A stretch of 64,000 bases of DNA, from assembly GCA_019163175.1 (NCBI GenBank), contig JAFLKN010000013.1:1-64000 (forward strand), in the 5' to 3' direction. Below the pieces are notes generated by a model. The model saw only the letters and a program-made list of their open reading frames with translations. It was not told the origin of the DNA and searched no databases. This document shows positions 4,708 to 64,000 of the stretch, piece after piece. Position numbers and translations under genes: made by a program. Numbering within the stretch: position 1 is the first letter of the stretch; each line of letters begins with the position of its first letter. Source of the DNA: Prolixibacteraceae bacterium (GTDB lineage Bacteria; Bacteroidota; Bacteroidia; Bacteroidales; Prolixibacteraceae).

Positions 4708-6036
4708 ATGATGCTCAAATTGTACTTAGTCTGCTCGATTAGTCTCCTTCTGTTCAGTTGCGGATCGTCGGACAAAAAACCAGGCCAAAAAATTAACACT
4801 GAAAAAACAGTGACTGCTGAAGAACAGAAACCGGGCGGTTTTAAAGATTTGATTCCTTCAACTTTTAAAATCGATACCTACGAAAATAACCGTATTCTGG
4901 AAACCGGAATGGGATTTTTTGTGTCTGGCGATATGGCAGTTACCCGTCTTTCCTTTTTCGAATCAGCTAACCGTGCTGTAATTACACCCTTTGACGAAAA
5001 CCAGTCTTACGAAGTGAGTGGCTTTATTAGTATTGACCGAATCAACGATTTAATTTTGCTAAAGATGGATGGGCTAAAAAAAACACCTGTTAACTTGGCC
5101 GAAACAATTCTGACTGATGATGAAAAAACCACCTTTTTTGATAAGCCACAAGGAAATACCGTTCCGCTGCACGATGGAAAAGTGCTGAGCTATTCCAATA
5201 TGCTGGGCAGCAAATTGTACCGCGTCACCAATCAGTTGAGATCCAAAAGTGTTGGAAGTCCGATATTCAACTCCAACATGCAATGTATCGGGCTGGGCTT
5301 TATCCAGATTGCCGATTACGAAACCCAAACATTTGTAACACCTTCTGTCTTTATATCCGACCTAATAAAAAAAGCAGGGAAGTTTCAGGCATTAAGCGAA
5401 CTTCAAAAACAGGCTACTGAGCAGGAAAGCGCCAACAACAGCAAAGTAAAAGGATTGGTTATCGAAACTGAATTGGGAAACATCAAAATTAAATTGTACA
5501 ACTCAACCCCTCAATACCGCGATAATTTTATCAAACTTGCCCGTGAAAATTATTTTGATGATCTTCTCATCCATCGTGTAATCAGCGACTTTGGTATTCA
5601 GAGCGGTGCTGCCGATACCCGTTATGCCACTGCCGATGATGTGGTCGGATGGAAAGGTCCTGGCTATACGTTGCCCGCCCATATTGTTCCGGGCTTGTAT
5701 CACAAACGTGGCGTAATTGGTTCGCCTCGAAAACCGGAACGCGAAAATATGAGAAAGCGCTCCGACGGCTCTCAATATTATATTGTGACCGGACGCATTT
5801 ATACCGATCAGGAATTGAATGATCTGGAAAAAGAGATTGGCCATAAATTTACCGACGAACAGCGCAACACCTATAAAACCATAGGAGGAGCACCACACCT
5901 TGACGGAACTTACACCATTTTTGGTGAAGTTTTGGAAGGAATGGAAATTGCCGACCAGATCTCGAAAGTAGAAGTTAACAGCGAATTCAGACCTAAAAAA
6001 GACATCCGGGTCAAAAAAATCAGGATTCTGGAATAA
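4708..6036 (+). CDS. Degenerate trypsin-like domain fused to a cyclophilin, lipoprotein
   Basis: A 442-aa lipoprotein (LLLFSCGSS, Cys about 18) with two parts. Residues about 45-235 look like an HtrA/S1C serine protease domain (GMGFFVSGDMAVT, VSGFISIDRINDLILLKMDG, KSVGSPIFNSNMQCIGLGF). The catalytic His region reads AVTRLSFFE and the Ser region reads KSVGSPIF where an active enzyme has TNxHVV and GNSGGPL, so it should not be proteolytic. Residues about 250-442 are a cyclophilin domain (HRVISDFGIQSGA, RKRSDGSQYYIV, YTIFGEV) with a shorter insertion than its two neighbours. Tandem with them, 3 nt downstream. Inferred role: envelope folding factor with a protein-binding pseudoprotease domain. 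Confidence 0.8.
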   Translation: MMLKLYLVCSISLLLFSCGSSDKKPGQKINTEKTVTAEEQKPGGFKDLIPSTFKIDTYENNRILETGMGFFVSGDMAVTRLSFFESANRAVITPFDENQSYEVSGFISIDRINDLILLKMDGLKKTPVNLAETILTDDEKTTFFDKPQGNTVPLHDGKVLSYSNMLGSKLYRVTNQLRSKSVGSPIFNSNMQCIGLGFIQIADYETQTFVTPSVFISDLIKKAGKFQALSELQKQATEQESANNSKVKGLVIETELGNIKIKLYNSTPQYRDNFIKLARENYFDDLLIHRVISDFGIQSGAADTRYATADDVVGWKGPGYTLPAHIVPGLYHKRGVIGSPRKPERENMRKRSDGSQYYIVTGRIYTDQELNDLEKEIGHKFTDEQRNTYKTIGGAPHLDGTYTIFGEVLEGMEIADQISKVEVNSEFRPKKDIRVKKIRILE

Positions 6037-6070
6037 TTGGTTCGCCATAAAACTTGAATCATTATCTTTG
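6037..6070 (+). promoter_or_regulatory. Possible pheS promoter
   Basis: ATTG (6037-6040), 22 nt, then TATCTTTG (6063-6070), a perfect TAnnTTTG -7 box. It is 15 nt before the pheS ATG at 6086, implying a very short leader. Confidence 0.55.
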
Positions 6071-6085
6071 CCGCTCAATATTAAC

Positions 6086-7114
6086 ATGAATCAGATGTTA
6101 GATAAAATCAGGGAATTAAAGGAAGAAATTGAAAAAGCTTCAGTTTCGGCCAAAGAAGAGGTTGAAGAATTACGTATAAAATATATCAGTAAAAAAGGTT
6201 TGGTCGGGCAGCTTTTTAACGAATTTAAAGATGTACCCGCCGAGCTGAAGAAAGAAGTTGGGCAAGCAATCAACGATTTAAAAGAGTTTGCAGTCAACAG
6301 AATCAACGAACTGAAGGATAATTTTGAAGGAGCAGATCAAGGTGAATTGGGCATCGACCTTACCATGCCGGCCGAACCCATCCGCTTGGGAAGCCGCCAT
6401 CCGCTGTCGATCGTGAAAAACGAAATGATCGACATTTTTACCCGTTTGGGATTTACCATTGCCGAAGGACCCGAAATTGAAGACGACTGGCATGTATTTT
6501 CGGCACTCAACTTTCCGCCGGAACACCCTGCCCGCGACATGCAGGATACTTTTTTTATCGAAAAAAATCCGGATGTTCTGCTTCGCACACACACATCAAG
6601 CGTACAAATTCGGGTAATGGAAAAAACCCAGCCACCCATTCGGGCTATTTTCCCCGGACGTGTTTTCCGCAACGAAGCCATCTCGGCACGTTCGCACTGT
6701 ATTTTCCACCAAATTGAAGGTTTGTATGTGGACGAGAATGTTTCGTTTGCCGACCTGAAACAGACTTTGCTGTATTTTGCCCGCGAACTTTTCGGAGAAA
6801 AATCTCAAATCCGTTTACGTCCATCCTATTTCCCATTTACCGAACCATCGGCCGAAATGGACGTGAGCTGTTCGATTTGTGGCGGCGAGGGCTGCAACGT
6901 TTGTAAATACACCGGTTGGCTAGAAATTCTGGGCTGCGGAATGGTTGACCCGAATGTTTTGGAGGCCTGCAACATCGACAGTAAAAAATATACCGGCTTT
7001 GCTTTCGGAATGGGAATTGAGCGTATTACCATGCTGAAATACGGAATTAAAGACATCCGCCATTTCTTCGAAAACGATGTCCGCTTCCTGAAGCAGTTTG
7101 AATCTGCAAATTAA
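6086..7114 (+). CDS. pheS: Phenylalanyl-tRNA synthetase alpha subunit
   Basis: Catalytic subunit of the alpha2-beta2 PheRS that charges tRNA-Phe. From the ATG at 6086 it has 342 aa, the usual size; an upstream TTG at 6068 overlaps the -7 box and is unlikely. Visible: an N-terminal coiled-coil arm (residues about 1-85), class II motif 1 region with SRHPLS and GFTIAEGPEIEDDWHVFSAL, motif 2 FPGRVFRNEAISARSH followed by FHQIEGLYVD, and motif 3 GFAFGMGIERITMLKYGI. Four cysteines in CSICGGEGCNVCKYTGW form the PheS insert found in many bacteria. pheT is not adjacent. Confidence 0.96.
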   Translation: MNQMLDKIRELKEEIEKASVSAKEEVEELRIKYISKKGLVGQLFNEFKDVPAELKKEVGQAINDLKEFAVNRINELKDNFEGADQGELGIDLTMPAEPIRLGSRHPLSIVKNEMIDIFTRLGFTIAEGPEIEDDWHVFSALNFPPEHPARDMQDTFFIEKNPDVLLRTHTSSVQIRVMEKTQPPIRAIFPGRVFRNEAISARSHCIFHQIEGLYVDENVSFADLKQTLLYFARELFGEKSQIRLRPSYFPFTEPSAEMDVSCSICGGEGCNVCKYTGWLEILGCGMVDPNVLEACNIDSKKYTGFAFGMGIERITMLKYGIKDIRHFFENDVRFLKQFESAN

Positions 7115-7138
7115 AAGGATAATTCCCAATATAATACG

Positions 7139-7171
7139 AATCCCGGCTTCTGAAAAAAGTCGGGATTTTTT
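7139..7171 (+). terminator. Rho-independent terminator after pheS
   Basis: 11-bp stem AATCCCGGCTT / AAGTCGGGATT with one G-T pair, followed by TTTTTATTTT. It lies 25 nt past the pheS stop and separates it from the convergent stress-protein gene. Confidence 0.88.
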
Positions 7172-7186
7172 ATTTTGCTGTTAAAT

Positions 7187-8287
7187 TCAGGCATGAAAAA
7201 CCAGAATAGGCGTTTGAGTATGCAATACCAATTTGCGTGAAATGCTCGGATTAAAAAACCTTGTCAGCAGATTTCGGCGATGGGTTGTTAATGCCAGCAC
7301 ATCAATTCTATTGTCCTGAATAAAATTGTCAATCGCTTCGGGCAAATTTCTATTTCGAACCAAGCGGCAATCAAAAGCTGCATACGGATATTTCTCGCTC
7401 AAAGCCTCGCGCATTCCTTCAAGCATGGCCTCGTCCAACTCTCCGTTATCACCCCTGTTAACATGCAGGCAAATCACTTTACAATCGAAAGGTTTTACCA
7501 GTTTAATCAATTTATCCATTGCAATAAAATCCTGAGCTTCGAAATTGGTAGCATATACAACTGTTTTGAAATTATTCAGCCAGTTGTCGGGAGTATTTTC
7601 AGGAATGGCCAATACCGGCACTTTGGTATTAAAAATTACTCCGGCAGTAGTTGAGCCCATTAAATCGCCAACCCGGGCATCTCCACCACGAATACCCATC
7701 ACGACCATTTTAGGTGGATGAATCTGAATGTAGGAAAGAATGTCGTCGTCAGCTTCGCCAATCTTGACGATATATTCGGGTTTTGCTTTTTTCCAACGGT
7801 GATAATCAATCATTGAAGTCAGCTTATTCAGGAACTCTTCAAACTTCTTGCTGGTAGCTTTCTCTGTCATTTCGTAATTTAGGAACAAAGCCGAATCATA
7901 TACAATTACGTCAGAATATGGAATGGTTAAAAACTCCGGACGAGGTGTGGAATGATACATAACCATCTTTGATTCCAGCTTCTCGGCAATATCGAATCCG
8001 ACCAAAGCCGCTTTAAGCGAGTAGGTCGAAAAATCGATCGGAACCAAGACGTAATTCTCCCGCTTCGAGTGATCACTGATCTCCTTCCCCAACATCTTCT
8101 CCAATATCGGAAAAGCCAGGCGTGCATCTTTTTCGGCAATACGAATTCGAACTCCGGTATCCATCGCATCCTGCAAAAAATCGACATTCTCCAGAAAACA
8201 ATCAATACCCTCCAATTCAAGCAGAGAGCGCAATATTTCAGCCTTTGAATAGGGTAATGATGCAAGGGTAATTAGTTTGTCGTCCAT
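7187..8287 (-). CDS. DUF2007-tandem universal stress protein fusion
   Basis: Cytoplasmic protein of 366 aa with three modules. Residues about 1-70 resemble DUF2007, a small signal-transducing domain (LASLPYSKAEILRSLLELEG, VRIRIAEKDARLAFPIL). Two UspA-type domains follow (about 80-225 and 230-366). The first has VLVPIDFSTYSLKAAL and VVMGIRGGDARVGDLMGSTTAGVI, close to the ATP-binding G-2x-G-9x-G pattern. The second is more divergent (VVYATNFEAQDFIAMDKL, LALTTHRRNLLTRF). ATG at 8287 preferred over a GTG at 8293. Monocistronic. Probably a nucleotide-binding stress or adhesion regulator; ligand unknown. Confidence 0.82.
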   Translation of the reverse strand: MDDKLITLASLPYSKAEILRSLLELEGIDCFLENVDFLQDAMDTGVRIRIAEKDARLAFPILEKMLGKEISDHSKRENYVLVPIDFSTYSLKAALVGFDIAEKLESKMVMYHSTPRPEFLTIPYSDVIVYDSALFLNYEMTEKATSKKFEEFLNKLTSMIDYHRWKKAKPEYIVKIGEADDDILSYIQIHPPKMVVMGIRGGDARVGDLMGSTTAGVIFNTKVPVLAIPENTPDNWLNNFKTVVYATNFEAQDFIAMDKLIKLVKPFDCKVICLHVNRGDNGELDEAMLEGMREALSEKYPYAAFDCRLVRNRNLPEAIDNFIQDNRIDVLALTTHRRNLLTRFFNPSISRKLVLHTQTPILVFHA

Positions 8288-8462
8288 GGCCACCGGATTT
8301 AAGGTTAACGTTTAATCCCTAATTCGGAAAACAGGCGCAAATGGTTACTAAAACCCCTGACATTTTTTCTATTTCGCTTATGTTTTTTGACTTAAGTGTC
8401 AGAAATCACCAATTCCATTTTTTTACTAACTTCCGCAGCTCATTCTCTGGCTAAACTAACTC

Positions 8463-11189
8463 ATGAACCTGAAAAGATTTCATCTTATCCTGCTTATATT
8501 TTGCCTTTTTCCGGCTTCCTTATGTGCTGCCGAAAAATTAATCATCTCGGAATTTATGGCTGTAAATGGGCATAACCTTCAGGACGAAGACAAAGAATAT
8601 TCCGACTGGATTGAAATACAGAATACCGGACAAACTACTATAAACCTGAAAGGATATTACCTAACTGACAATTCGCTTAACCTGACCAAATGGAAATTTC
8701 CGGAGATAAATCTGGATGCCGGCAAATTTCTGCTTGTGTTTGCCTCCGAAAAAAACCGGATCGATCCGACCAAAAGCCTGCATTCCAATTTTAAACTATC
8801 CGGTTCGGGCGAGTTTCTGGCCCTGATTTCTTCCGACGGTAAAACTATTCTCAGCTCATTTGCACCGCAATATCCTGCTCAGGAAGAAGATGTTTCGTAT
8901 GGGATCTATAATGGTCAGGCGGTTTATTTCGATCAACCCACACCGGGAACTGTAAATATTCAAAGCAACAAAGTTCAGATTCCAGTATTCAGCAAAGCGC
9001 GTGGCTATTACTCATCGCCTTTTATGGTTTCGCTTCAAACGCCTGACGACGGTACCCAAATTTATTACACCACCGATGGAATACGCCCCACAGCACAAAA
9101 AGGCATTCTTTACACCCAACCCATCAAAATACAGACAACAACCCCATTAAGCGCAATCTCCATAAAGAATGGTTCGGAAACCAGCGCTGTGGTTACCAAC
9201 ACCTACTTCTTTACCGACAGTATCCTAAAGCAAACAAATCATCCCAAAGGCTATCCGGCAGAATGGGGTGCTTTTGAAGCCATCACAGGAATTGCCCCAG
9301 CCGATTACGAAATGGACCCGGAAATCTGCAACAATCCGATTTACAAACCGCAACTGGCTGATGCATTTCAGGATTTGCCAAGTCTTTCGATTGTAACCGA
9401 CCCCGACAATATTTTTTCGCACAGCACCGATCCTGTAACCGGCGGAATCTATATTTATACCTGTTCTACCGGAAAAGGACTTGGCTTAGATTGGGAGCGT
9501 CCGGCATCAGCTGAATATTACGACCCGAAAACACAGCAATGGTTCCAGATAAATTGTGCCCTTCAGTTGCATGGAGGTGCAAGCCGCGTTCCGGAGAAAA
9601 CACCGAAACATTCATTCCGGCTGGAATTTAAAACCTTGTATGGACCTTCAAAACTCGACTTCCCGATTTTTAGCGAACCCGAGGCAACCACCCAGTTCAA
9701 TTCGCTGGTTCTGCGTGCCAACTTCGGATATACCTGGCTTCACTGGACCGCCACCGAACGAAAAGCGCCCAAGTACGTTCAGGACAGCTGGGGAAAAGAC
9801 ACACAACTGGCTATGGGTCATCATTCGGCACACAACAAATTCGTCCATTTATTTCTGAATGGTATTTACTGGGGCATGTACAACCTCTGTGAACGACTAG
9901 ACGAAGATTTTATGGGAACTTACCTGAAAGGAAAAGCCGACGATTTTGATGTGATCAAAGATTATGCGGAAGTGTCAAATGGTACTATAACAGTCTGGAA
10001 TAACATGATGGCTATGGCAAACAGTGGTTTAACCACGCAGGCAGCTTACCAGAAAATTCAAGGTCATAATCCGGATGGAACCCGCAACAGTGCTTACGAG
10101 CCATACCTCGATATTGAAAACCTGACTGACTATATGCTGATGAATTTTTACGCCGGAAACAACGATTGGGATCATCACAACTGGGTAGCTGCTCGCAACA
10201 AAGTTGAGCCGGGGAAAGGATTTAAGTTTTTCAGTTGGGATGCCGAACATTTATTTACGACGAGTACGCTTGATGTAACCAAAGAAGACAATGCAAACTG
10301 TCCCAGCCACTTGTTTACAAAACTGAAAGACAATGCTGATTTCCGGATGTTTGTAGCCGATCGTGTTCAGCAATTGTTTTTTGGCGATGGACTGCTCACT
10401 CCACAATCGGCCTCCGACCGTTACCTGAAACGAGCCAAAGAAATTGAAAAAGCCATTTTGTGCGAAAGTGCCCGATGGGGAGACTACCGCCGCGATGTTC
10501 ACCCACGCGATAACGACAACGACTTATATACTCCCGAAAAATACTGGGTAAAAACCCGCGATTGGCTGACTCAAACTTACTTTCCGCAACGAACTGATTT
10601 GGTTGTCAATCAGCTCCGCTTGTCAGGTTTATACCCTTACCTTAATGCAGCAGAATTCACTCACACGGGCGGTGACCTTACGAATGAAATTGATTTGGGA
10701 ATGTATGCATCCAAGGGTACAATTTACTACACTGTAAACGGTATTGACCCCAGAGAAACTGAAGGGAATATAGCTACAACAGGCGTCTATTCGTACAATT
10801 CGCCTTTAAAAATAAATGGAAACGGTACTGTGAAAGCCAGAGTAAAAGAGGGTACCCGCTGGTCAGCTTTAACCGAAGCCACCTTCAGTTTTCCTGATTC
10901 AACACTACTGCTAACTGCAGGTTTTGGAAATAAAGATGGAACTGGAAATTTCCCAAATCCGTTTAAGCAGGAAACCAATATTTGGTTCAATCTTGAGAAA
11001 GAATCGTCGGTGACAATCAGTATTTTTAATCTTCAGGGAAAGCTAATCGAAACCATTTTTGATGGAAAGCTTGGCCGCGGAACACAATACCAAAGCTGGA
11101 AACCGATGTCATTGGGAAAAGGCATCTACTTGTATCGAATTCAAACCGAAGGGAAAACGGAATCAGGAAAGATGGTGTATCTGAAGTAG
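8463..11189 (+). CDS. Secreted CotH-kinase protein with lamin-tail, chitobiase-like and T9SS sorting domains
   Basis: A 908-aa secreted protein. Order of parts: signal peptide (1 to about 22, SLCAAEK); lamin-tail-like domain (about 25-145, LIISEFMAVNG, YSDWIEIQNTG); a chitobiase C-terminal-like beta domain (about 165-250, YYTTDGIRPT); CotH kinase-like domain (about 300-640, ALQLHGGASR, FVHLFLNGIYWGMYNLCERL, FFSWDAEH); a second chitobiase-like repeat (IYYTVNGIDPRE, about 710-800); and a C-terminal type IX sorting domain (FPNPFKQETNIWF, KGIYLYRIQT). CotH proteins are atypical protein kinases in spore coats; in Bacteroidota they are exported with unknown targets. It precedes the glucan locus but is not obviously part of it. 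Confidence 0.88.
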   Translation: MNLKRFHLILLIFCLFPASLCAAEKLIISEFMAVNGHNLQDEDKEYSDWIEIQNTGQTTINLKGYYLTDNSLNLTKWKFPEINLDAGKFLLVFASEKNRIDPTKSLHSNFKLSGSGEFLALISSDGKTILSSFAPQYPAQEEDVSYGIYNGQAVYFDQPTPGTVNIQSNKVQIPVFSKARGYYSSPFMVSLQTPDDGTQIYYTTDGIRPTAQKGILYTQPIKIQTTTPLSAISIKNGSETSAVVTNTYFFTDSILKQTNHPKGYPAEWGAFEAITGIAPADYEMDPEICNNPIYKPQLADAFQDLPSLSIVTDPDNIFSHSTDPVTGGIYIYTCSTGKGLGLDWERPASAEYYDPKTQQWFQINCALQLHGGASRVPEKTPKHSFRLEFKTLYGPSKLDFPIFSEPEATTQFNSLVLRANFGYTWLHWTATERKAPKYVQDSWGKDTQLAMGHHSAHNKFVHLFLNGIYWGMYNLCERLDEDFMGTYLKGKADDFDVIKDYAEVSNGTITVWNNMMAMANSGLTTQAAYQKIQGHNPDGTRNSAYEPYLDIENLTDYMLMNFYAGNNDWDHHNWVAARNKVEPGKGFKFFSWDAEHLFTTSTLDVTKEDNANCPSHLFTKLKDNADFRMFVADRVQQLFFGDGLLTPQSASDRYLKRAKEIEKAILCESARWGDYRRDVHPRDNDNDLYTPEKYWVKTRDWLTQTYFPQRTDLVVNQLRLSGLYPYLNAAEFTHTGGDLTNEIDLGMYASKGTIYYTVNGIDPRETEGNIATTGVYSYNSPLKINGNGTVKARVKEGTRWSALTEATFSFPDSTLLLTAGFGNKDGTGNFPNPFKQETNIWFNLEKESSVTISIFNLQGKLIETIFDGKLGRGTQYQSWKPMSLGKGIYLYRIQTEGKTESGKMVYLK

Positions 11190-43618: not shown

Positions 43619-43647
43619 GCCGGAAATAAGAAATTTGGATAATGGAT

Positions 43648-43680
43648 AGAGGTCGTTTCAGTTGATGAAGCGACCTCTTC
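43648..43680 (+). terminator. Hairpin after the Crp/Fnr gene
   Basis: 8-bp stem AGAGGTCG / CGACCTCT, extended by three pairs (TTC/GAA) after one mismatch. A strong stem but only a short T tract (TCTTCT). It lies between convergent genes and may stop both directions poorly. Confidence 0.55.
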
Positions 43681-44342
43681 TAGCTTTGAAATACTAGAAA
43701 GTAATGTTTTATAGGCAAATTACCATGAATTGATCTAAAGCAATAATCCAAATTTGGATTTTCGTTCTGTACTTTTAATAGTATCTCCCCAGAGTTGAAT
43801 CTATTCATTAAATAAGAATTGATCATTGGAACAATATTCTCAGGTGATCCCTGTAAAATATAACCAACCAAACATCCTTTTTCAGGATATTTTCCTGAAA
43901 CAAAATTGTCAATTCCCGTTTCGACATACCTTTTATGAAGACTATCTGCCAGAATTTTTGTTTTTCTGCCTTTTTTAAAACAATCATTTTCAATGAGGTT
44001 TTTTGCTTCTATAAAGTATTCAATACGTTTTCGCTGATCTGTCCAATCTTTAGTAAACCGAAAATCTATTCGTGATGCGGATTTGGCTGATTGTTCCTGA
44101 GACAAAATTGAATCATTCAATAACCGGTACTCATTGAAAATGTTTATATGTAAGTTTATTGCGCGTTCGCTTTTATCAATGTAATCAAAAAAGAGTGCAG
44201 AAATATTTTCTTCTTCCCAGTCAATTGTTACAGTTTTATTTGCTTTAATGAAGGCAAACGCCTCTCCCCATAGAATAAGACAATTCTGGACAAAAGAACT
44301 TTCGAAATCCTGAATGATGGAAGATTTTAATTTGCCTGACAT
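43680..44342 (-). CDS. Possible PD-(D/E)XK nuclease partner of the methylase gene
   Basis: 220-aa protein of no recognised family. A possible PD-(D/E)XK nuclease signature is visible: Asp93 in SRIDFRFTKDW, then IEYFIEAKNL with Glu112-x-Lys114, an E-x-K pair 19 residues after the Asp. A conserved-looking C-terminal part follows (YVETGIDNFVSGKYPEKGCLVGYILQG). The ATG abuts the stop codon of the methylase gene (TAGATG), so translation is coupled and the two probably act together in defence. Length is short for a full restriction enzyme. The nuclease call is inference from one motif. Confidence 0.6.
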   Translation of the reverse strand: MSGKLKSSIIQDFESSFVQNCLILWGEAFAFIKANKTVTIDWEEENISALFFDYIDKSERAINLHINIFNEYRLLNDSILSQEQSAKSASRIDFRFTKDWTDQRKRIEYFIEAKNLIENDCFKKGRKTKILADSLHKRYVETGIDNFVSGKYPEKGCLVGYILQGSPENIVPMINSYLMNRFNSGEILLKVQNENPNLDYCFRSIHGNLPIKHYFLVFQS

Positions 44343-47339
44343 CTATTCTTCCTCCATGTTGATGATTTCAGCTATTAACGATGTAGCATCATCAATGGCT
44401 TGCGACCGGGTCCAAAAGCGCTTTTGGTTGGGTTTTATCAGATAAAGCAAATCATTTTCATAATCAAAATATTTCACTTGTTTTTGAACGTAAATGCTAT
44501 CGGATGTCTTCTTGAGCATATATCGATCAATATTCTTTAAACTTTCCCGAAGAGTATCTATATTTTTTTCTTCTACCGGTTTCTCCTGATTGTCAAAATG
44601 CAGCACAACCATATTTAGCGGATCTCGCAGCCCAACATCATAAATACATGCACTTACTCTTGTTTTTGTAGGGTTGAGAAATGTATTAAACTCGGAACAT
44701 AGCATGTTGGCATAGGCCAGGTTTTCAGGTCGCAAAGTGCGGTGTAAGGCAATGGAGTTATGACCATGATCAAAAAGATCAAGCTGAAACTTTAGGCAAT
44801 CTTCAATCAGGACTTGCTCTTTTGCTTTTAATCCAATTACTTGATAAAGAATGGCATTAAGCTTCTCTTCAACGATTTTAGTTTCTTGATTTGTCGATAC
44901 GGATTTTAGTTGCTCAAAACAATCTCCAATTCCTTGAAGGTGTTCATTATTAATGTCCTTAATTATAGCCGGTAATTCCAGTAATTCTTCAAAAAGTATC
45001 CGTTCACGTTCAATTCCCCAAGAAGAGGAAGATAAGAAAAGAAAATAGGTTGCAAAAACCGAATTAATATATGAAACCAAGGTTTGTTTTATTTCATTGG
45101 TTACTAATCCGTTGATCAGATAAGTTGATTTTAAGGAACTCGCACAATAGTCAATATATGATGCGGCAATCTCGTTGTCATGTTGGCCTTCTTTTACAAC
45201 GACATAAGGTGGAGTAAACAAATCTTTCGTGATTTTTCTGTATTTTCTTTCATTTAAGTAACAGGCTGATTCTTTGGTGTAGTAACGCGTAATTCCTTGC
45301 GTTCTAATGATTCGGGGAGGAATAACTTCAAGTTTATCAGAATCGGCAATATAACCGGTTCCGGTATTCCAAATATTTTTTTCGGTTGAAAAGTACCTTT
45401 TAAGGCTAGGAAAACGACTATTCAATCTAGTTAGAAGTAAAAAATCCTGCATACCTCCCCACATTGCAATTTTCCAGATTTTTGTGTCCGGTTTTTGACA
45501 CTCATTACGAGGTAGTAACTTAATATCCGTACTATCAATTACAATTCCATCAACAAGATTGTTTCTGATGTAGGTTTTGGGCGCACAATATTCTATAGTC
45601 TCAGGAATTATCAATGGCTTTTCTTTTTGGAAATAAACGATACTAATTGGGACTGTAGCACCATCAAATAACTGTTCTCCAAAATTCTTTTCTACTCTTC
45701 TGAAAATGGATAAATTGTAAACCTTTTCCGTATGGTTCTTCGCAAAAAGCCATTTGCGAAAGTGATTGTATTTTTTATTCGTATTGGTAAGACTTTTTGT
45801 ATTGAAAATCAATGCGATTTTCCCTTTGGGAGAAAAGGCCACAGCTTTATCAATAAAAGCAAGTACCATCTGCTGTGGATATTTTCTTTCCTCCAGATAG
45901 TTCTTAATTGAATCTTGTATTTTCTTTGTTCCAAACGGCGGATTCCCAACCACCAAGTCCACTTTTACAAATTCATCAGCATTTACCTGGCCAATGGTAT
46001 CCCTACGCCAAAAGTTTTTTCCTTGTTTCTTTATGGTTGTATCGTCGGGATCGTAAATAAGGTAAGGCAACTGATAGTTAGGCTCAATCCAAAGTGTTTT
46101 GGGGTCAAGTTCGTCAACCAATGCTAAATACAAGCTGAAAGCTGCAACCTTAATTGCAGTTGAGTCTATTTCAATACCATAAATGTTCGAGAGTAAAAGC
46201 TCGCTCAATGTATCAAAACTGATTTTTTTTGTTGGGTTAGCTTTTTTCCATCGTTTAACAAGTCTTTTATAGCTTTCTACCAGAAAGATGCCCGACCCAC
46301 ACGCTGGATCAAGAATTTTAACATTGAAATCTGGATTATCGATTGGTAGTTTATCGTTGAGTATCAGTTCAACCAAACTAAAAGGTGTATAAAACTGACC
46401 TTTCTCGTGTTTCAGTTCGCCCAAGAAGTTTTCATAAATCTCGCTCAACAATTCAATTTGAATAATTTTAAAATTGAAAAGTCTCCATCCATCAAAAAGA
46501 TTAGGTTGATTGGATAAATCACCATCAGTAAAGCACTTTTTTATCAGTCTTAAATGTTCCGGCTTAACAAGTTCCGCTTCACCTTCAATTATTGGAAATA
46601 CATTCCCGTTGAAATGTATTTGCACTTCATTGAATAACTGATAAGTAGCCTTTATATCATCAAGTATTTCAAAATAGCTGCTTGCTCCCGGTAGAATCTT
46701 TTCATAAAGACCAGCTTCCTTTGCCGCACCTTTATCTTCAAGAAAAAGGATAAACAACGAACGCATTAAAAGTGCATGGATGATTTCCAGTTGAGGGATA
46801 TCACTTTTCAGTTCAATGGCCGTTCTTTTCAGGCTATCGACAAGAAATTTATCTAACCTACGCTGAATATTTACCCTGCTTTTTACTTCATAATCGGTTG
46901 TCCAAAGTAACCCACAATCAACGCCGATACGTGAAAATACTTCGGAAAGGATGTGTAAAGCCTGTTCATCTGAGGTTTTGTCGTAACTAAAAATCTGGGC
47001 TTTTGACAGCTTCTTGTTTGGGTCGTCGTCTTCTTCCCCAATATATTCAGGCTTTTCCTGGCAATTATAAATTCTAATTTCAGTGTCGGAAAGGGCAAAT
47101 AACAGTAGTATTTTTCGGTAATTCCAGGCTTTGTGCTGAATTTCTGCAATTTTCTTTAAATAAACGGTATTGAAACTTTTCACCTCAACAAAAAGAACGG
47201 TAGGATTCTTACCTGAAAAGTAAACCTTATCTGCTCCAAGTTGCTCAATTTCATTAAAATTAGGGTACACCGATTTGATTTCTGAATTATCGGTCAGAAA
47301 CTCATCATAACCCAAATTTGTATAAAATTGATTACTCAT
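44343..47339 (-). CDS. Fused nuclease-like/N6-adenine DNA methyltransferase (type IIG-like restriction-modification)
   Basis: 998-aa multidomain protein. Residues 37-54 show a PD-(D/E)XK-like motif (GADKVYF...LFVEVKSF: Asp37, Glu52, Lys54). The central methylase has the class gamma motifs: GQFYTPF (about 314-320), LDPACGSGIF (343-352, SAM binding) and DLVVGNPPFG (461-470, catalytic NPPF). The C-terminal third (about 620-998) is probably the target-recognition region (IWKIAMWGGMQDFLLL, INSVFATYFLFLSSSSWGIERERI). This is the type IIG/Eco57I-like layout: restriction and modification in one chain, adenine methylation. The next gene follows without a gap. Confidence 0.85.
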   Translation of the reverse strand: MSNQFYTNLGYDEFLTDNSEIKSVYPNFNEIEQLGADKVYFSGKNPTVLFVEVKSFNTVYLKKIAEIQHKAWNYRKILLLFALSDTEIRIYNCQEKPEYIGEEDDDPNKKLSKAQIFSYDKTSDEQALHILSEVFSRIGVDCGLLWTTDYEVKSRVNIQRRLDKFLVDSLKRTAIELKSDIPQLEIIHALLMRSLFILFLEDKGAAKEAGLYEKILPGASSYFEILDDIKATYQLFNEVQIHFNGNVFPIIEGEAELVKPEHLRLIKKCFTDGDLSNQPNLFDGWRLFNFKIIQIELLSEIYENFLGELKHEKGQFYTPFSLVELILNDKLPIDNPDFNVKILDPACGSGIFLVESYKRLVKRWKKANPTKKISFDTLSELLLSNIYGIEIDSTAIKVAAFSLYLALVDELDPKTLWIEPNYQLPYLIYDPDDTTIKKQGKNFWRRDTIGQVNADEFVKVDLVVGNPPFGTKKIQDSIKNYLEERKYPQQMVLAFIDKAVAFSPKGKIALIFNTKSLTNTNKKYNHFRKWLFAKNHTEKVYNLSIFRRVEKNFGEQLFDGATVPISIVYFQKEKPLIIPETIEYCAPKTYIRNNLVDGIVIDSTDIKLLPRNECQKPDTKIWKIAMWGGMQDFLLLTRLNSRFPSLKRYFSTEKNIWNTGTGYIADSDKLEVIPPRIIRTQGITRYYTKESACYLNERKYRKITKDLFTPPYVVVKEGQHDNEIAASYIDYCASSLKSTYLINGLVTNEIKQTLVSYINSVFATYFLFLSSSSWGIERERILFEELLELPAIIKDINNEHLQGIGDCFEQLKSVSTNQETKIVEEKLNAILYQVIGLKAKEQVLIEDCLKFQLDLFDHGHNSIALHRTLRPENLAYANMLCSEFNTFLNPTKTRVSACIYDVGLRDPLNMVVLHFDNQEKPVEEKNIDTLRESLKNIDRYMLKKTSDSIYVQKQVKYFDYENDLLYLIKPNQKRFWTRSQAIDDATSLIAEIINMEEE

Positions 47340-47445
47340 TAAACATTTTTAAAAATGAAATTTAAGTGTTTTTTTTCACGATTCAAAACTAAGAGACAAT
47401 TACAGATAACTTATTTTGGTTTAATCAAGTAAGAGTTAATCAGTA

Positions 47446-59599: not shown

Positions 59600-60101
59600 T
59601 ATTTATCTATTCTTAATTTAACCAAAAGGATACCCTAATACTCGGTTTTTTCTTTCTAAAATATTAATTCAATATTAGTATTATTATATTTTAAAATGAA
59701 ATTAAATAAGATGAATATTATTATGTCCTGTTAATAAGCTTGATATCTTTTATTTTTTTTGCTTGTTTTTAATTAAAACACAATTTTATTTTCTTTTTTT
59801 AACTTGTTATTAACAGGTCAATTATTTGATTTTAAAGATACTCTATTTTATAATAACAACTGTTAATTTTTTATTTTCTTAATAAATAACTGAGGCAAAT
59901 TTACGGTTTTTCTGTTTAAATCAAGACTAAATAGATTTGATTAAATCTTATTGCATGAACTGAAAAAAATACCTATTACAAATTTCAATGAATATCTTTG
60001 CCTTTATTTTTTGATTTTTACTTTGAATTTATAAACATCATTTGTGTTTTAATGTTTAAAACGTGAATATATAAGTGTTTAAAAATGAATTTATTATAAA
60101 G
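59600..60101. other. AT-rich intergenic region
   Basis: About 500 bp, very A/T-rich, no ORF or RNA gene recognised. It holds an exact inverted repeat CCTGTTAATAA (59727-59737) / TTATTAACAGG (59807-59817), 69 nt apart. It is the divergent promoter region between the response regulator and the DUF4175 gene. Confidence 0.55.
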
Positions 60102-63100
60102 ATGGATGAAAACTATAAACAGTTTGTTGATAAACTAAACTCCTACATAAGGAAGTTTTACTTTTATCGCTTATTAAGGGGTATTATACTCTTTATCCTT
60201 CTTTTATTGGTTTACTATAGTTGTATTTCTGCTTTGGAATACTTCAATTATTTTGATCCTAAAATTAAATTCATACTACTTGTTTTTACTTTTTTAATAA
60301 CAATTCTTATTTCATTTTATTTTTTAATTATACCTGGAATAAAGCTTCTTGGTATTGGAAAAAGGCTAAATTATTACGATGTATCTTCTCAACTTCAGAA
60401 AACATATCCTGAAATACAAGATAGACTCATCAATATTGTAGAATTAGCTAATGAACAAGTCTCTAATTATTCAAGTGATTTACAAAAGGCTAGTATAGAT
60501 CAAAAAATTGATGAATTAAAGATATTTAATTTCTCTGATGCTATTCGGTATAAGGATTTGAAAGTAGTGGTTTTTGTTTTACTAGGAGTACTGCTTCTAT
60601 TCTTAGCTATGTTTATAAGTATTCCTGATTTTTTTACAGAGAGTTCTGTACGCTTAATTCATTTTCAGCAGAAGTTTGAAAAACCAGCTCCATATACATT
60701 TGAACTACTAAATAATAATTTGGAAATTGTAACAGGCGAATCGGTTGAATTAAAATTGAAATGTAAGGGCAAGGAAATACCAGAAGTAATGTTTGTTGAT
60801 ATTAGTGGAAATCGTTTTTTAATGTCAAAAGAAACTGATGTATTTGTTTATAAGATTGAAAATATAAATAGTTCTGTTTCTGTTTATTTCACCGACAAAA
60901 AGTATGTTTCTAAAATTTATAAAGTAACAGTTTTAAATAAGCCTTTCATTTCTTCTTTTAGTGTTGAAATAATTCCTCCTTCATATACCAATATAGGTAG
61001 TGAAATATTGCAAAATATTGGTGATATGAAGGTAGTTGCAGGAACAACTGTAAAATGGGTTTTTAATACGGTAGATACTGATAGTTTATTTTTGTTTTTA
61101 AATGATAGTAGTAAAGTAATTGCAAAGCGAAATGAAAATTCATTTGAGCTGAATGACGTTATTCTTAGTGATTTTGATTACAGTGTATTTGTTAAAAATG
61201 CCAAACTGACAAATGAAAACACTTTAGTGTATAAAATTCAGACAATTGCTGATTTATATCCAGAAATTAAAGCTGTACAGGTTCGTGATTCAATGGATTT
61301 TAAAACTTTTCATTTTAAAGGAAATGTTGTTGATGATTTTGGTTTTAGTCAGCTTGATTTTAATATTAGTTTTGAAGGAAAAGATAGTGTATTTCATATT
61401 CCTTTTACACCATTTTTCCTAAATCAAGATTTTTATTATTCATTTAATTTTGAATCAGTTAGAAGTTTAGGAAAGTCTTTTAAATACTATTTTTCGGTAT
61501 CTGATAATGATATAATTAATCACTTTAAAAGGTCGATTAGCGAAACTTTTACTTTTACTTTTCCTGATTATCAGGAGATTCTTACTAAAGAAAATACTGA
61601 CTTCAATTCAATAGATGAATTGTTTAAGAAAAGTTCCAAACTCACTGAAGAAATCCAAAATGAATTTGAGAATTTCAAGATGAAACAAATTAATTCTGAG
61701 GTTTCTGAATGGGAAAAGTTTCAAACTGTGAAAGATATAATGAGTAAAAAAAATGAGTTGGAAAATATTTTGGAGCAGATAAGTAAGCAAAATAAGGATG
61801 CTAATAACTTCATGAATTCATTTTCTGAAGAGAAGCAAGATATATTAAAGAAGCAACAAGAAATTGAAAATTTGTTGAATGAAGTCTTCAGTGATGATTT
61901 AAAGAAACTTTTTGAAGAATTTAATGACTTGGCCAAGCAATTTGATTTGAAGAAATTTGATCAGTTATCGAAACAAATGGATTCTAAAATTGAAGATCTT
62001 TCGAAACAACTTGAAAAAAACATGCAGTTATTAAAGAAGATGAAGGTTGAACAGAAAGTCGAAAGAATTCTGGAGGAACTTAAAAAAATAAATAATTCAG
62101 AAAAATTGCAACTTGAAAAACTGGCTAAAAATCCGGATTTAAAACAGATAAATACAATTGAGAAGGAAAATTTATTGCTTTTGAAGAGTATTGAAAAGGA
62201 TTATTCTGAGACACTTGAGTTTAATAAGACACTTGCAAAACCAATGAATTTATTCAATTTTGATCGTGAGTTTTTAGAGATAACAAGCAATTATACAAAA
62301 GTAATTTCAGAATTAGAGAAGGGAAATAAACGGAAGTCTTCTTCAGCGATTGAAATCAATATAAAAAGCTTGGATCAACTCATTTTTGCTATTGACCAAA
62401 TGCTTAATAAAGACAAGAAAAAAGAGAATGAAGCTAATATTGAAGACTTAAAACAGATACTTGATAATCTGATTTTAGTTTCTTTCGACCAGGAAAAGAT
62501 TTTAAACAAGTTACTAGATGTTGATTTCAATAATCCGTTGATTAATGAAATTAAAGTCAAACAAAAGAATATAGCTTCTCAGGTTGTTTTTATAAAAGAT
62601 TCGTTATACGCGTTGTCAAAAAGAACACCAGAGATAAGTTCAATCATAAATAAGGAAGTATTGGCTTTGGAACAAAACATGGCCTCAACTTTTGATTTTC
62701 TTGAATCAGGAAATATCGGTGGGTCCAGAATGTATCAACAATATACTATAACGGCAGCTAATAATTTGGCTTTGTTTTTAAGTGAGGCTTTAGAGAATAT
62801 AAAGAAACAACAGAATAATAAAGGCGAGGGTGAAGAGGATTGTGATAAGCCCGGAAGCAAAGGGTCTAAACCTGGAATGAAAAAATTGAAAGATAGTCAA
62901 GGCTCCATAAAGGATCAGTTGCAAAAAATGATTGATCAGATGAAAAAGGGTGATATGGGTAAAATGAGTAAAAGTATCGGGCAGACCCTTGCTCAGCAGG
63001 AGATTATGCAACAATTGATAAGAGAAATGCTTAATGGAAATAATGTTGGATCAAAAGCTGGAGCGCAATTAAAGGCAGTTGATCAACTTTTGGAGCAAAC

Positions 63101-63386
63101 TCGAAAAGATTTGATTAATCGAAATATTACTTCAGAATTGGTTAATCGACAAAATTTGATTTTATCTAAATTACTCGAAGCGGAAAAGTCAGAAATTGAA
63201 CGCGATTTTGAAGAGAAAAGGGAGTCAAAAACAGCTATTGATATTAAGAAAGGAAACCCCGATGGATATTTCGAGTATAACAACGCGCTGAAGCATGAGA
63301 ATGAAATTATAAAGCGAAATAATTTTAAATTGAGATCTTTCTATGATCAAAAATACAATCAATTTCTAAATAAGATTAAAGATTAA
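60102..63386 (+). CDS. DUF4175 membrane protein with long coiled coil
   Basis: 1094-aa protein of the Bacteroidota DUF4175 type. Start at ATG 60102 (MDENYKQF); a GTG at 60075 would add nine residues. Transmembrane segments about 25-46, 57-80 and 153-175. An extracytoplasmic beta-rich part (about 200-480: YTFELLNNNLEIVTGESVELKLK) follows, then long lysine/glutamate coiled coils (about 500-850) and a Q/K-rich tail (GKMSKSIGQTLAQQEIMQQL). Codon use is markedly more AT-rich than upstream genes. It lies 2 nt before the ATPase gene; ybeY follows. Function unknown; an envelope-associated structural role is inferred. Confidence 0.85.
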   Translation: MDENYKQFVDKLNSYIRKFYFYRLLRGIILFILLLLVYYSCISALEYFNYFDPKIKFILLVFTFLITILISFYFLIIPGIKLLGIGKRLNYYDVSSQLQKTYPEIQDRLINIVELANEQVSNYSSDLQKASIDQKIDELKIFNFSDAIRYKDLKVVVFVLLGVLLLFLAMFISIPDFFTESSVRLIHFQQKFEKPAPYTFELLNNNLEIVTGESVELKLKCKGKEIPEVMFVDISGNRFLMSKETDVFVYKIENINSSVSVYFTDKKYVSKIYKVTVLNKPFISSFSVEIIPPSYTNIGSEILQNIGDMKVVAGTTVKWVFNTVDTDSLFLFLNDSSKVIAKRNENSFELNDVILSDFDYSVFVKNAKLTNENTLVYKIQTIADLYPEIKAVQVRDSMDFKTFHFKGNVVDDFGFSQLDFNISFEGKDSVFHIPFTPFFLNQDFYYSFNFESVRSLGKSFKYYFSVSDNDIINHFKRSISETFTFTFPDYQEILTKENTDFNSIDELFKKSSKLTEEIQNEFENFKMKQINSEVSEWEKFQTVKDIMSKKNELENILEQISKQNKDANNFMNSFSEEKQDILKKQQEIENLLNEVFSDDLKKLFEEFNDLAKQFDLKKFDQLSKQMDSKIEDLSKQLEKNMQLLKKMKVEQKVERILEELKKINNSEKLQLEKLAKNPDLKQINTIEKENLLLLKSIEKDYSETLEFNKTLAKPMNLFNFDREFLEITSNYTKVISELEKGNKRKSSSAIEINIKSLDQLIFAIDQMLNKDKKKENEANIEDLKQILDNLILVSFDQEKILNKLLDVDFNNPLINEIKVKQKNIASQVVFIKDSLYALSKRTPEISSIINKEVLALEQNMASTFDFLESGNIGGSRMYQQYTITAANNLALFLSEALENIKKQQNNKGEGEEDCDKPGSKGSKPGMKKLKDSQGSIKDQLQKMIDQMKKGDMGKMSKSIGQTLAQQEIMQQLIREMLNGNNVGSKAGAQLKAVDQLLEQTRKDLINRNITSELVNRQNLILSKLLEAEKSEIERDFEEKRESKTAIDIKKGNPDGYFEYNNALKHENEIIKRNNFKLRSFYDQKYNQFLNKIKD

Positions 63387-63388
63387 GT

Positions 63389-63787
63389 TTGAAATATTTA
63401 TTGGTCATATCTTCGAGTCTCATTAATATCAGTAAAGTGAGATTATTTTTAGAGGAGATTTTTGTCGAATCTTGTCTAAATCAATCTTATTTTAATCGTA
63501 TTTTTTTGGGTCTTAGCGAGGCATTGACTAATTCCATTGTTCATGGAAATAGACAGTGCAGTACAAAAAATGTCAGCATAGAGGTTTTTCTTTTGCAGAA
63601 TGAATTAGTGATTGAAATTACAGATGAAGGTGAGGGTTTTTCACTTGACAGCTTGCCTGATCCTACTTGTTTAGAAAATATTAAAAATGAAAATGGTCGT
63701 GGAATTTTTCTTATCCGCCATTATGCTGATGATTTAAGTTTTCTGGAAGGTGGAAGAAGAGTAAGAATGAAATACAAGTTGAATTAA
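63389..63787 (+). CDS. RsbW-like ATP-binding protein (anti-sigma/serine kinase type)
   Basis: 132-aa GHKL ATPase-like protein. N-box GLSEALTNSIVHGN, G1 box EITDEGEGF and G2 box NGRGIFLIRHYADDL are present, matching HATPase_c_2 (anti-sigma-factor kinases). It may phosphorylate or sequester a partner; no anti-anti-sigma gene is visible. Only a TTG at 63389 is available as a start (no ATG before the N-box). It sits between DUF4175 and ybeY, a conserved order in Bacteroidota, and its stop overlaps the ybeY ATG by one base (TAATG). Confidence 0.88.
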   Translation: MKYLLVISSSLINISKVRLFLEEIFVESCLNQSYFNRIFLGLSEALTNSIVHGNRQCSTKNVSIEVFLLQNELVIEITDEGEGFSLDSLPDPTCLENIKNENGRGIFLIRHYADDLSFLEGGRRVRMKYKLN

Positions 63788-64000
63788 TGAGTATACAATA
63801 CTTTGTTGAGAGTATTCCGTTTCCAAAATTTAAGAAGAGGAGTACTTCAAACTGGATTAAATCGGTAATAATTTTAGAAGGAAAGACTCCTGGAGATATT
63901 TCATTTGTTTTTTGTTCTGACGAATATTTGTTGGAAGTTAATAGAAAGTACTTGCAACATGATTATTTTACCGATATAATCACTTTCGATTATGTTGAGG
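63787..64000 (+). CDS. ybeY: Endoribonuclease YbeY, 5' part
   Basis: The first 71 codons of rRNA maturation factor YbeY. Translation begins MSIQYFVESIPFPKFKKR and reaches LEVNRKYLQHDYFTDIITFD, the conserved LN-YLxHDxxTDIITFD motif upstream of the zinc site. The zinc-binding HGxLHLxGYDH segment is beyond the window. ATG overlaps the preceding stop (TAATG). Continues past 64000. Confidence 0.93.
   Translation, partial: MSIQYFVESIPFPKFKKRSTSNWIKSVIILEGKTPGDISFVFCSDEYLLEVNRKYLQHDYFTDIITFDYVE

Follow-up and report, generated by a model that had tools for sequence, protein, structure and literature searches.

The pair of adjoining genes at positions 43680-47339 of a 64,000-nucleotide (nt) stretch of DNA from a Prolixibacteraceae bacterium (contig JAFLKN010000013.1; the whole stretch is referred to here as the window) raises the question of where the nuclease of a type IIG-like restriction-modification locus is encoded, and of what would direct it to its target. 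The initial annotation had read the locus as a cassette with two nucleases, consisting of a large adenine methylase with a possible N-terminal PD-(D/E)XK site (Asp37, Glu52-x-Lys54) and a small protein of no recognized family with a second such site (Asp93, Glu112, Lys114). Both open reading frames (ORFs), the quoted motifs, and the TAGATG junction are present as claimed: the minus strand carries an ORF of 998 amino acids (aa) at 44343-47339 and one of 220 aa at 43680-44342, and in the junction sequence GGAGGAAGAATAGATGTCAGG the small ORF starts at the base right after the stop codon of the large ORF. Of the interpretation placed on these features, the small nuclease, the pairing, and the lack of a family match stand, and the active N-terminal nuclease of the large protein does not. 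The answer proposed here is a two-gene restriction-modification system in which one chain holds both methylation and specificity and the separate small protein holds the nuclease, a reading to which a probability of roughly 0.7 is assigned.

44343..47339, minus strand: large gene, 998 aa, adenine methyltransferase with presumed specificity domain, type IIG-like (ORF, Pfam, PADLOC)
43680..44342, minus strand: small gene, 220 aa, putative PD-(D/E)XK nuclease subunit (ORF, conservation, AlphaFold)
44340..44345, minus strand: TAGATG junction, large-gene stop abutting small-gene start (sequence)

The large and the small gene are a fixed unit. Alignment of the large protein to the named genome collection gave 132 relatives, and among the best 80 of these 132 a homologue of the small gene lies directly downstream of the large gene in 77, a result that clearly favors the pair in the neighborhood check and bears out the proposed coupling of the small gene to the methylase. 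Two of the three exceptions end at a contig edge (L075 and L088), and the third (L065) has 2.6 kb of other sequence downstream; the 77 include a split large gene (L091), a split small gene (L129), and a small gene cut by the contig end (L133). The distance between the two genes ranges from a 67-nt overlap to 3 nt (73 loci). By record title the relatives are mostly Bacteroidota, with others from Sulfurovum, Psychrobacter, Candidatus Tenebribacter, and a Proteobacteria metagenome-assembled genome. No constant third gene was found within 3 kb among ORFs of at least 90 aa, and no neighbor family occurs in more than 8 of 71 loci.

Searches that started from either protein led to the same arrangement. 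The small protein is present in 2 of 395 phylum-sampled, 2 of 23 genus, and 5 of 100 family-sampled genomes (the window genome included each time), and the five relatives found with it have a large-gene homologue directly upstream (partial, at a contig end, in L055). A search with the large protein gave 17 fetched loci, namely a close relative (L033) and 16 loci at 26-34% best-segment identity, and in 13 of the 17 the large gene is followed directly by an ORF of 206-249 aa on the same strand; among the rest, L036 has a small gene by profile, L037 ends at a contig edge, and L049 has none downstream. An IS605/TnpB-type ORF (Pfam OrfB_IS605, Cas12f1-like TNB) interrupts the small gene of L043 (2237-4306). 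A profile of 18 small proteins found 17 places in 16 of 395 genomes, 15 of them beside a large gene; the two remaining are the interrupted copy and a truncated remnant beside a DDE transposase ORF (L160), with no large-gene match in the 10 kb examined there.

Plasmids also carry the pair. On four inspected alphaproteobacterial plasmids, the "hypothetical protein" downstream of the large gene matches the small-protein profile at 2e-11 to 3e-26 (a four-sequence search), and an alphaproteobacterial small protein used as query found 20 plasmid records, 19 annotated as hypothetical protein (one of which also overlaps an N-6 DNA methylase) and one unannotated. The alphaproteobacterial plasmids with the pair include a Ti plasmid (L158, 3833-7424). 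The large protein matched 140 plasmid records, 8 of them covering 80% or more, and 26 phage records, none covering 80%; the window's small protein had no match among phages and plasmids, and viral contigs held one relative, cut off at the contig end.

The alignment and the predicted structure of the small protein bear on whether it could be the nuclease, and the residues concerned are as follows.

44211..44213, minus strand: Glu44 codon, start of the helix preceding the core strands, 76/76 (alignment, AlphaFold)
44064..44066, minus strand: Asp93 codon, strand 90-100, 74/76 (alignment, AlphaFold)
44001..44009, minus strand: Glu112-x-Lys114 codons, strand 105-117; E112 76/76, K114 74/76 (alignment, AlphaFold)
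43704..43706, minus strand: His213 codon, invariant 76/76 (alignment)

In an alignment of 76 small proteins (the window plus 75 loci, with L129 and L133 omitted as incomplete), E44, E112, Y139, Y161, N175, and H213 are invariant, D93, E112, and K114 are jointly retained in 74, and 74 likewise keep E44, D93, E112, K114, Y139, and H213 together. A wider small-protein set has D93, E112, and K114 in 18 of 18 rows, with E44 replaced by R in two rows and Y139 by F in one. The AlphaFold model (75 sequences; predicted local distance difference test score, pLDDT, 94.4; predicted template modeling score, pTM, 0.90) places a helix at 44-56 ahead of three strands (67-74, 90-100, and 105-117), then a helix at 132-148 and a strand at 156-164. 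The element order is that of PD-(D/E)XK, D93 lying in the second of the three strands and E112-x-K114 in the next. Retention in 74 of 76 small proteins, like the downstream homologue in 77 of 80 relatives, exceeds chance. Retention and element order thus sustain the D93...E112-x-K114 site as originally proposed and make it very probable that the small protein is a PD-(D/E)XK nuclease; that the pair is conserved and that the small protein is a PD-(D/E)XK protein are, taken jointly, held with high confidence.

The small protein could not be placed in any known family, as had been remarked from the window alone. Pfam gave nothing significant for the window's small protein (YhcG_C at E 0.042, far below its cut-off), and at most two of 75 members match any one Pfam family (best E 0.0057). 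No family was matched in NCBIfam or, for three small proteins, in PHROGs, and PADLOC gave nothing significant for the window's protein (PDC-S02 at 0.0028), with at most two of the 75 members matching any one model (best E 0.00024, a Cas7d model). Sequence searches of the PDB with small proteins reached best E values of 0.1 and 0.64. A Foldseek search of BFVD gave one match at 4.7e-4 to an uncharacterized Pithovirus protein (template modeling scores 0.24-0.26), with a DUF2726 protein and a Cas4-like protein next at 0.004-0.008, none of which is used as evidence.

The methylase and recognition regions of the large protein, which bear on where the small protein would cut, are listed here.

45444..46334, minus strand: methyltransferase region, about residues 336-632 (Pfam, pair identity profiles)
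46290..46310, minus strand: methyltransferase motif I, DPACGSG, residues 344-350 (sequence)
45933..45944, minus strand: methyltransferase motif IV, NPPF, residues 466-469 (sequence)
44790..45422, minus strand: presumed target recognition domain, about residues 640-850, swapped wholesale among close relatives (identity profiles; Pfam TaqI_C E 0.65)
44346..44762, minus strand: C-terminal region, about residues 860-998, the last part conserved across recognition-domain exchanges (identity profiles)

In Pfam the large protein hits N6_Mtase and Eco57I; with motif I and an NPPY/F/W motif it has the gamma-class adenine methylase of type IIG enzymes; among 78 aligned large proteins (the window plus 77 loci, with three shorter than 900 aa omitted) motif IV is NPPF in 69, NPPY in 6, and NPPS in 3. 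Close pairs of large proteins show a sharp drop in identity at about residue 632 and a recovery between about 850 and 940, and in three pairs the DNA identity is 0.47-0.49 within residues 640-850, compared with 0.75-1.00 before and 0.59-0.98 after. Such profiles are typical of an exchanged target recognition domain, and residues 640-850, approximately, are presumed to be one, although Pfam TaqI_C matches only at a weak E.

Differences in the recognition domain are not accompanied by differences in the small protein. In three pairs (L109/L079, L106/L081, and L108/L083) the small proteins are 91%, 90%, and 90% identical and the recognition domains 29%, 30%, and 27% (91/23, 90/22, and 88/23 with gaps counted), against a background recognition-domain identity of 30 +/- 6% (1907 pairs). 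Among 58 pairs with small proteins at least 70% identical, the recognition domains are below 40% in 39, at least 65% in 17, and between in 2, and among 22 non-overlapping pairs whose small proteins share 60% identity or more the corresponding counts are 11, 7, and 4; in the reverse view, small-protein identity spans 27% to 100% over the 29 pairs whose recognition domains are at least 65% identical. Across 73 systems, small-protein identity correlates with that of the N-terminal (0.76, 0.79), helical (0.83), methylase (0.80), and C-terminal (0.70, 0.78) regions, compared with 0.33 for the recognition domain, and correction for the methylase leaves 0.31-0.39 for the N-terminal and helical regions and 0.19-0.26 for the C-terminal regions (reached in 0 of 300 permutations each). 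Because the small protein is unchanged across recognition-domain exchanges, it would take its target from the large protein, and the evidence that it is guided in this way, with no specificity of its own that would need to match the methylase, is good but indirect.

The same figures bear on the best placed of the other explanations, an ordinary type II system in which the methylase and a small restriction enzyme each read the same sequence independently. Two adjacent genes, a protein of 220 aa (a usual size for a type II enzyme), and the presence of BamHI, MunI, BstEII, and SfiI in a weak Foldseek list would all suit such a system, but small proteins that are 88-91% identical occur with recognition domains at background, and a fixed-site enzyme would then cut unprotected host DNA. 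An independent type II restriction enzyme is therefore disfavored, if indirectly, and is considered unlikely.

Seven close pairs without exchange have ratios of nonsynonymous to synonymous substitution (dN/dS) of 0.07-0.20 for the small gene and 0.04-0.14 for the large gene, indicating purifying selection on both, and in the exchange pair L109/L079 the small-gene dN/dS is 0.52 at a very low dS (0.07). In two sister loci of a Prevotellaceae lineage (L068 and L134), D93 is replaced by R or C, K114 by Q, and NPPF/Y by NPPS; NPPS is likewise present in L075, where the contig ends before the small gene, and these three are the only NPPS loci among the 78. L134 and L075, but not L068, have damage in motif I as well. 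The joint loss of nuclease and methylase residues is what would be predicted of a nuclease restrained by its methylase, although it is seen in one lineage only. Both ORFs of L068 and L134 are open, with small-gene and large-gene dN/dS between the two loci of 0.28 and 0.15, and a non-catalytic use may therefore remain in this lineage, possibly as a repurposed, catalytically dead pair. A small protein that is mainly structural or regulatory throughout (e.g., needed for methylation or DNA binding, and non-cutting) would accommodate this degenerate lineage with its open and constrained ORFs, but the retention of the catalytic residues in 74 of 76 small proteins, which a purely structural function would not need, makes such a role quite improbable.

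There remains the N-terminal domain of the large protein, which in single-chain type IIG enzymes is the place of the nuclease.

46845..47339, minus strand: N-terminal domain, residues 1-165, confidently predicted, probably nuclease-like fold, active site unconserved (alignment, structure prediction, Foldseek)
47229..47231, minus strand: Asp37 codon of the earlier-proposed N-terminal site; D in 63/78 (alignment)
47178..47186, minus strand: Glu52-x-Lys54 codons of the earlier-proposed N-terminal site; E52 36/78, K54 17/78 (alignment)

The domain is predicted with a pLDDT of 89.6 and a pTM of 0.87, and among its Foldseek matches are BpuSI, a restriction-endonuclease-like protein, tRNA-splicing endonucleases, a Holliday-junction resolvase, and EcoR124I; its fold is probably nuclease-like, with an active site that is not conserved. 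At position 52 the 78 large proteins have E in 36 cases and K in 23, and D37, E52, and K54 occur together in 6 of 78, compared with 6.3 expected from the column frequencies (two rows are gapped at these positions); in the wider large-protein set the full triad is found in 1 of 19, the window's protein only (two rows fully and two partly gapped). The one-chain N-terminal nuclease site of type IIG is thus not conserved among the relatives of the large protein. Because the N-terminal triad is unconserved while the small-protein site is nearly invariant, each system most likely has a single active nuclease rather than two, encoded by the small gene. The two-nuclease explanation, in which an active N-terminal nuclease is joined by an accessory or second-cut nuclease, can point to the triad in the window's own protein and to a confidently predicted domain with weak nuclease-like matches such as BpuSI, but with a triad at chance level the N-terminal site as an active nuclease and the dual-cut and accessory readings built on it fall together, leaving this the least probable explanation of all.

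While the conservation of the pair and the recognition-domain exchanges favor a guided nuclease in the small protein, several observations weigh against it. The window's own large protein is one of the six that carry D37, E52, and K54, and its N-terminal domain may be active; D37 alone is fairly conserved; and the nuclease-like fold call for this domain is weakly based, the Foldseek list being weak and mixed (best 0.15). For the small protein, the structure prediction recovered the PD-(D/E)XK order of helices and strands, but the Foldseek search of the PDB did not add a significant match: none had an E of 0.001 or less, the best being human Rep15 at 0.057 and BamHI at 0.065, with MunI, BstEII, SfiI, PaqCI, HinP1I, FokI, and BbvCI lower in the list among unrelated proteins. 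A small residual correlation between the small protein and the recognition domain (partial 0.055) was reached by 15 of 300 permutations, and since the exchange pairs partly share ancestry, all of these correlations are descriptive and not strict tests. L065, finally, retains the large gene without the small gene. In that locus the large gene (5986-9009) is followed by unrelated sequence and has an intact N-terminal triad, and it might be an orphan methylase.

In the proposed two-gene system, the large protein would bind its DNA site through the exchangeable recognition domain and, to judge by its domains, would methylate an adenine there, marking host DNA. The N-terminal domain would occupy the place of the single-chain type IIG nuclease without a conserved active site, and the small protein would be the nuclease, having no site choice of its own and being brought to unmethylated sites by the large protein. 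No ATPase or helicase would take part in the proposed unit. The physical complex, the cleavage, its blocking by methylation, and the restriction of phages are all inferred. On a broader view, the architecture would be a widespread one in which a small generic nuclease is recruited by a methylase-specificity protein that has a dead N-terminal nuclease-like domain and serves as its exchangeable guide, giving many specificities without ATP, and in which one lineage lost both activities yet had its pair kept by selection, perhaps as a sequence-specific DNA-binding complex; the odds on this generalization are put at about even. If the guide-plus-generic-nuclease reading is true, many proteins filed as single-chain type IIG are mislabelled. 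A class of type IIG-like proteins would then have its nuclease in an unnamed adjoining gene, the large protein assayed alone would give methylation without restriction, and a nuclease targeted entirely by an exchangeable partner domain would be a natural case of modular targeting.

The genomic setting of the cassette provides some insight into its mobility. The host genome of the window comprises 5.92 Mb in 74 contigs, and the pair lies between a crp/fnr-type regulator and, at its opposite end, genes for an EnvC-like M23 peptidase and a LolB1 protein (Pfam, NCBIfam). The cassette sits between crp and envC (window 43619-47445), and of the 22 further genomes in the genus 10 were examined at this interval. 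It is empty, with a gap of 67-80 nt, in five of these (G401, G403, G404, G406, and G409), and it holds McrC and McrB-like genes in G400 and G398 (broken in G398), a TPR-histidine kinase in G395 and G408, and an M2/M3-type peptidase in G407; G395 has its own copy of the pair elsewhere in its genome. These differences fit a mobile cassette at a site that is also able to hold another restriction system, which is supportive of a defense role and not proof of it. Neighbor families that recur at other loci (L059, L061, L083, L108, L113, and others; one member per family checked by Pfam) are a TraG/VirD4-type coupling protein (8 loci), a tyrosine recombinase (7), a relaxase (6), and a YhcG PD-(D/E)XK nuclease (4), and some copies seem to lie on mobile elements. 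Elsewhere in the window, positions 60001-64000 have a G+C content down to 26-31% and a GC skew that turns positive at the window end.

Compared with known systems, the pair resembles several without coinciding with any. According to passages of two reviews (PMC3874165, PMC4081073), type IIG enzymes are single chains that join a gamma-methylase to a cleavage domain at the N-terminus, the specificity part being either fused to them or on its own. The large protein is like type IIG (IIC) enzymes such as Eco57I, MmeI, and BpuSI in its gamma-class adenine methylase, its length, and its presumed C-terminal recognition module, such modules diversifying in both, and it matches the PADLOC type IIG model at 5e-52. 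Unlike them, it belongs to a family in which the N-terminal nuclease site is unconserved, and the PD-(D/E)XK site lies on a separate gene; because the site of the one-chain nuclease that defines type IIG is not conserved, the pair is not classed as a member. Type IIG cleavage is, further, stimulated by AdoMet and falls a set distance away from the site. The type IIB enzyme BcgI also has two proteins, but these are a restriction-methylation chain and a specificity protein in the account excerpted from PMC4081073, whereas here the methylase and the presumed specificity part share a chain, the exchanged region lying in the methylase chain, and the second gene has the nuclease motif.

Classical type II systems with a gamma-methylase (e.g., HincII or TaqI, as given in part of PMC4081073) likewise have separate methylase and nuclease genes, but their nuclease reads its own site; independent reading is disfavored here, indirectly, by a small protein that stays constant across exchanges and does not track the recognition domain. 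A pair of genes from Prevotella intermedia, Pin25611FIV (a methylase with an overlapping hypothetical gene), resembles the present pair in description but was set aside because of its sizes of ~675 and ~467 aa and because the second gene is named a specificity subunit, a separation that depends only on the table coordinates and assignment in a portion of PMC5608340. No published description of the present pair was found among open-licence papers, among the matches listed, and the organizations described in the relevant passages of PMC3874165 and PMC4081073 do not include one in which a methylase-specificity chain is served by a separate, dependent nuclease.

The nearest idea found in print, in the part of PMC4389544 that deals with it, is a suggested split type IIG complex of Haloferax volcanii, where a separate PD-(D/E)XK protein might complete a nuclease-less IIG homologue (HVO_A0006/HVO_A0237). 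In that case the nuclease is a fragment of the IIG N-terminus and the genes lie apart (PMC4389544, same part), unlike the present pair, in which the putative nuclease forms a family of its own, encoded directly downstream, and the N-terminal domain of the large protein is retained. Type I systems resemble the pair in placing the nuclease in a subunit of its own, one that would rely on the methylase-specificity part, and differ in that no ATP-driven translocase and no separate specificity gene were found here and that the putative nuclease is 220 aa long. The small protein matches no family of ATP-dependent translocases or helicases of the type I or type III kind, and within 3 kb no neighbor family occurs in more than 8 of 71 loci. 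If the reading is true, the arrangement provides a direct test of the relationships among type I, type IIG, and ordinary type II systems; the present pair would work like a type IIG enzyme or a reduced type I system.

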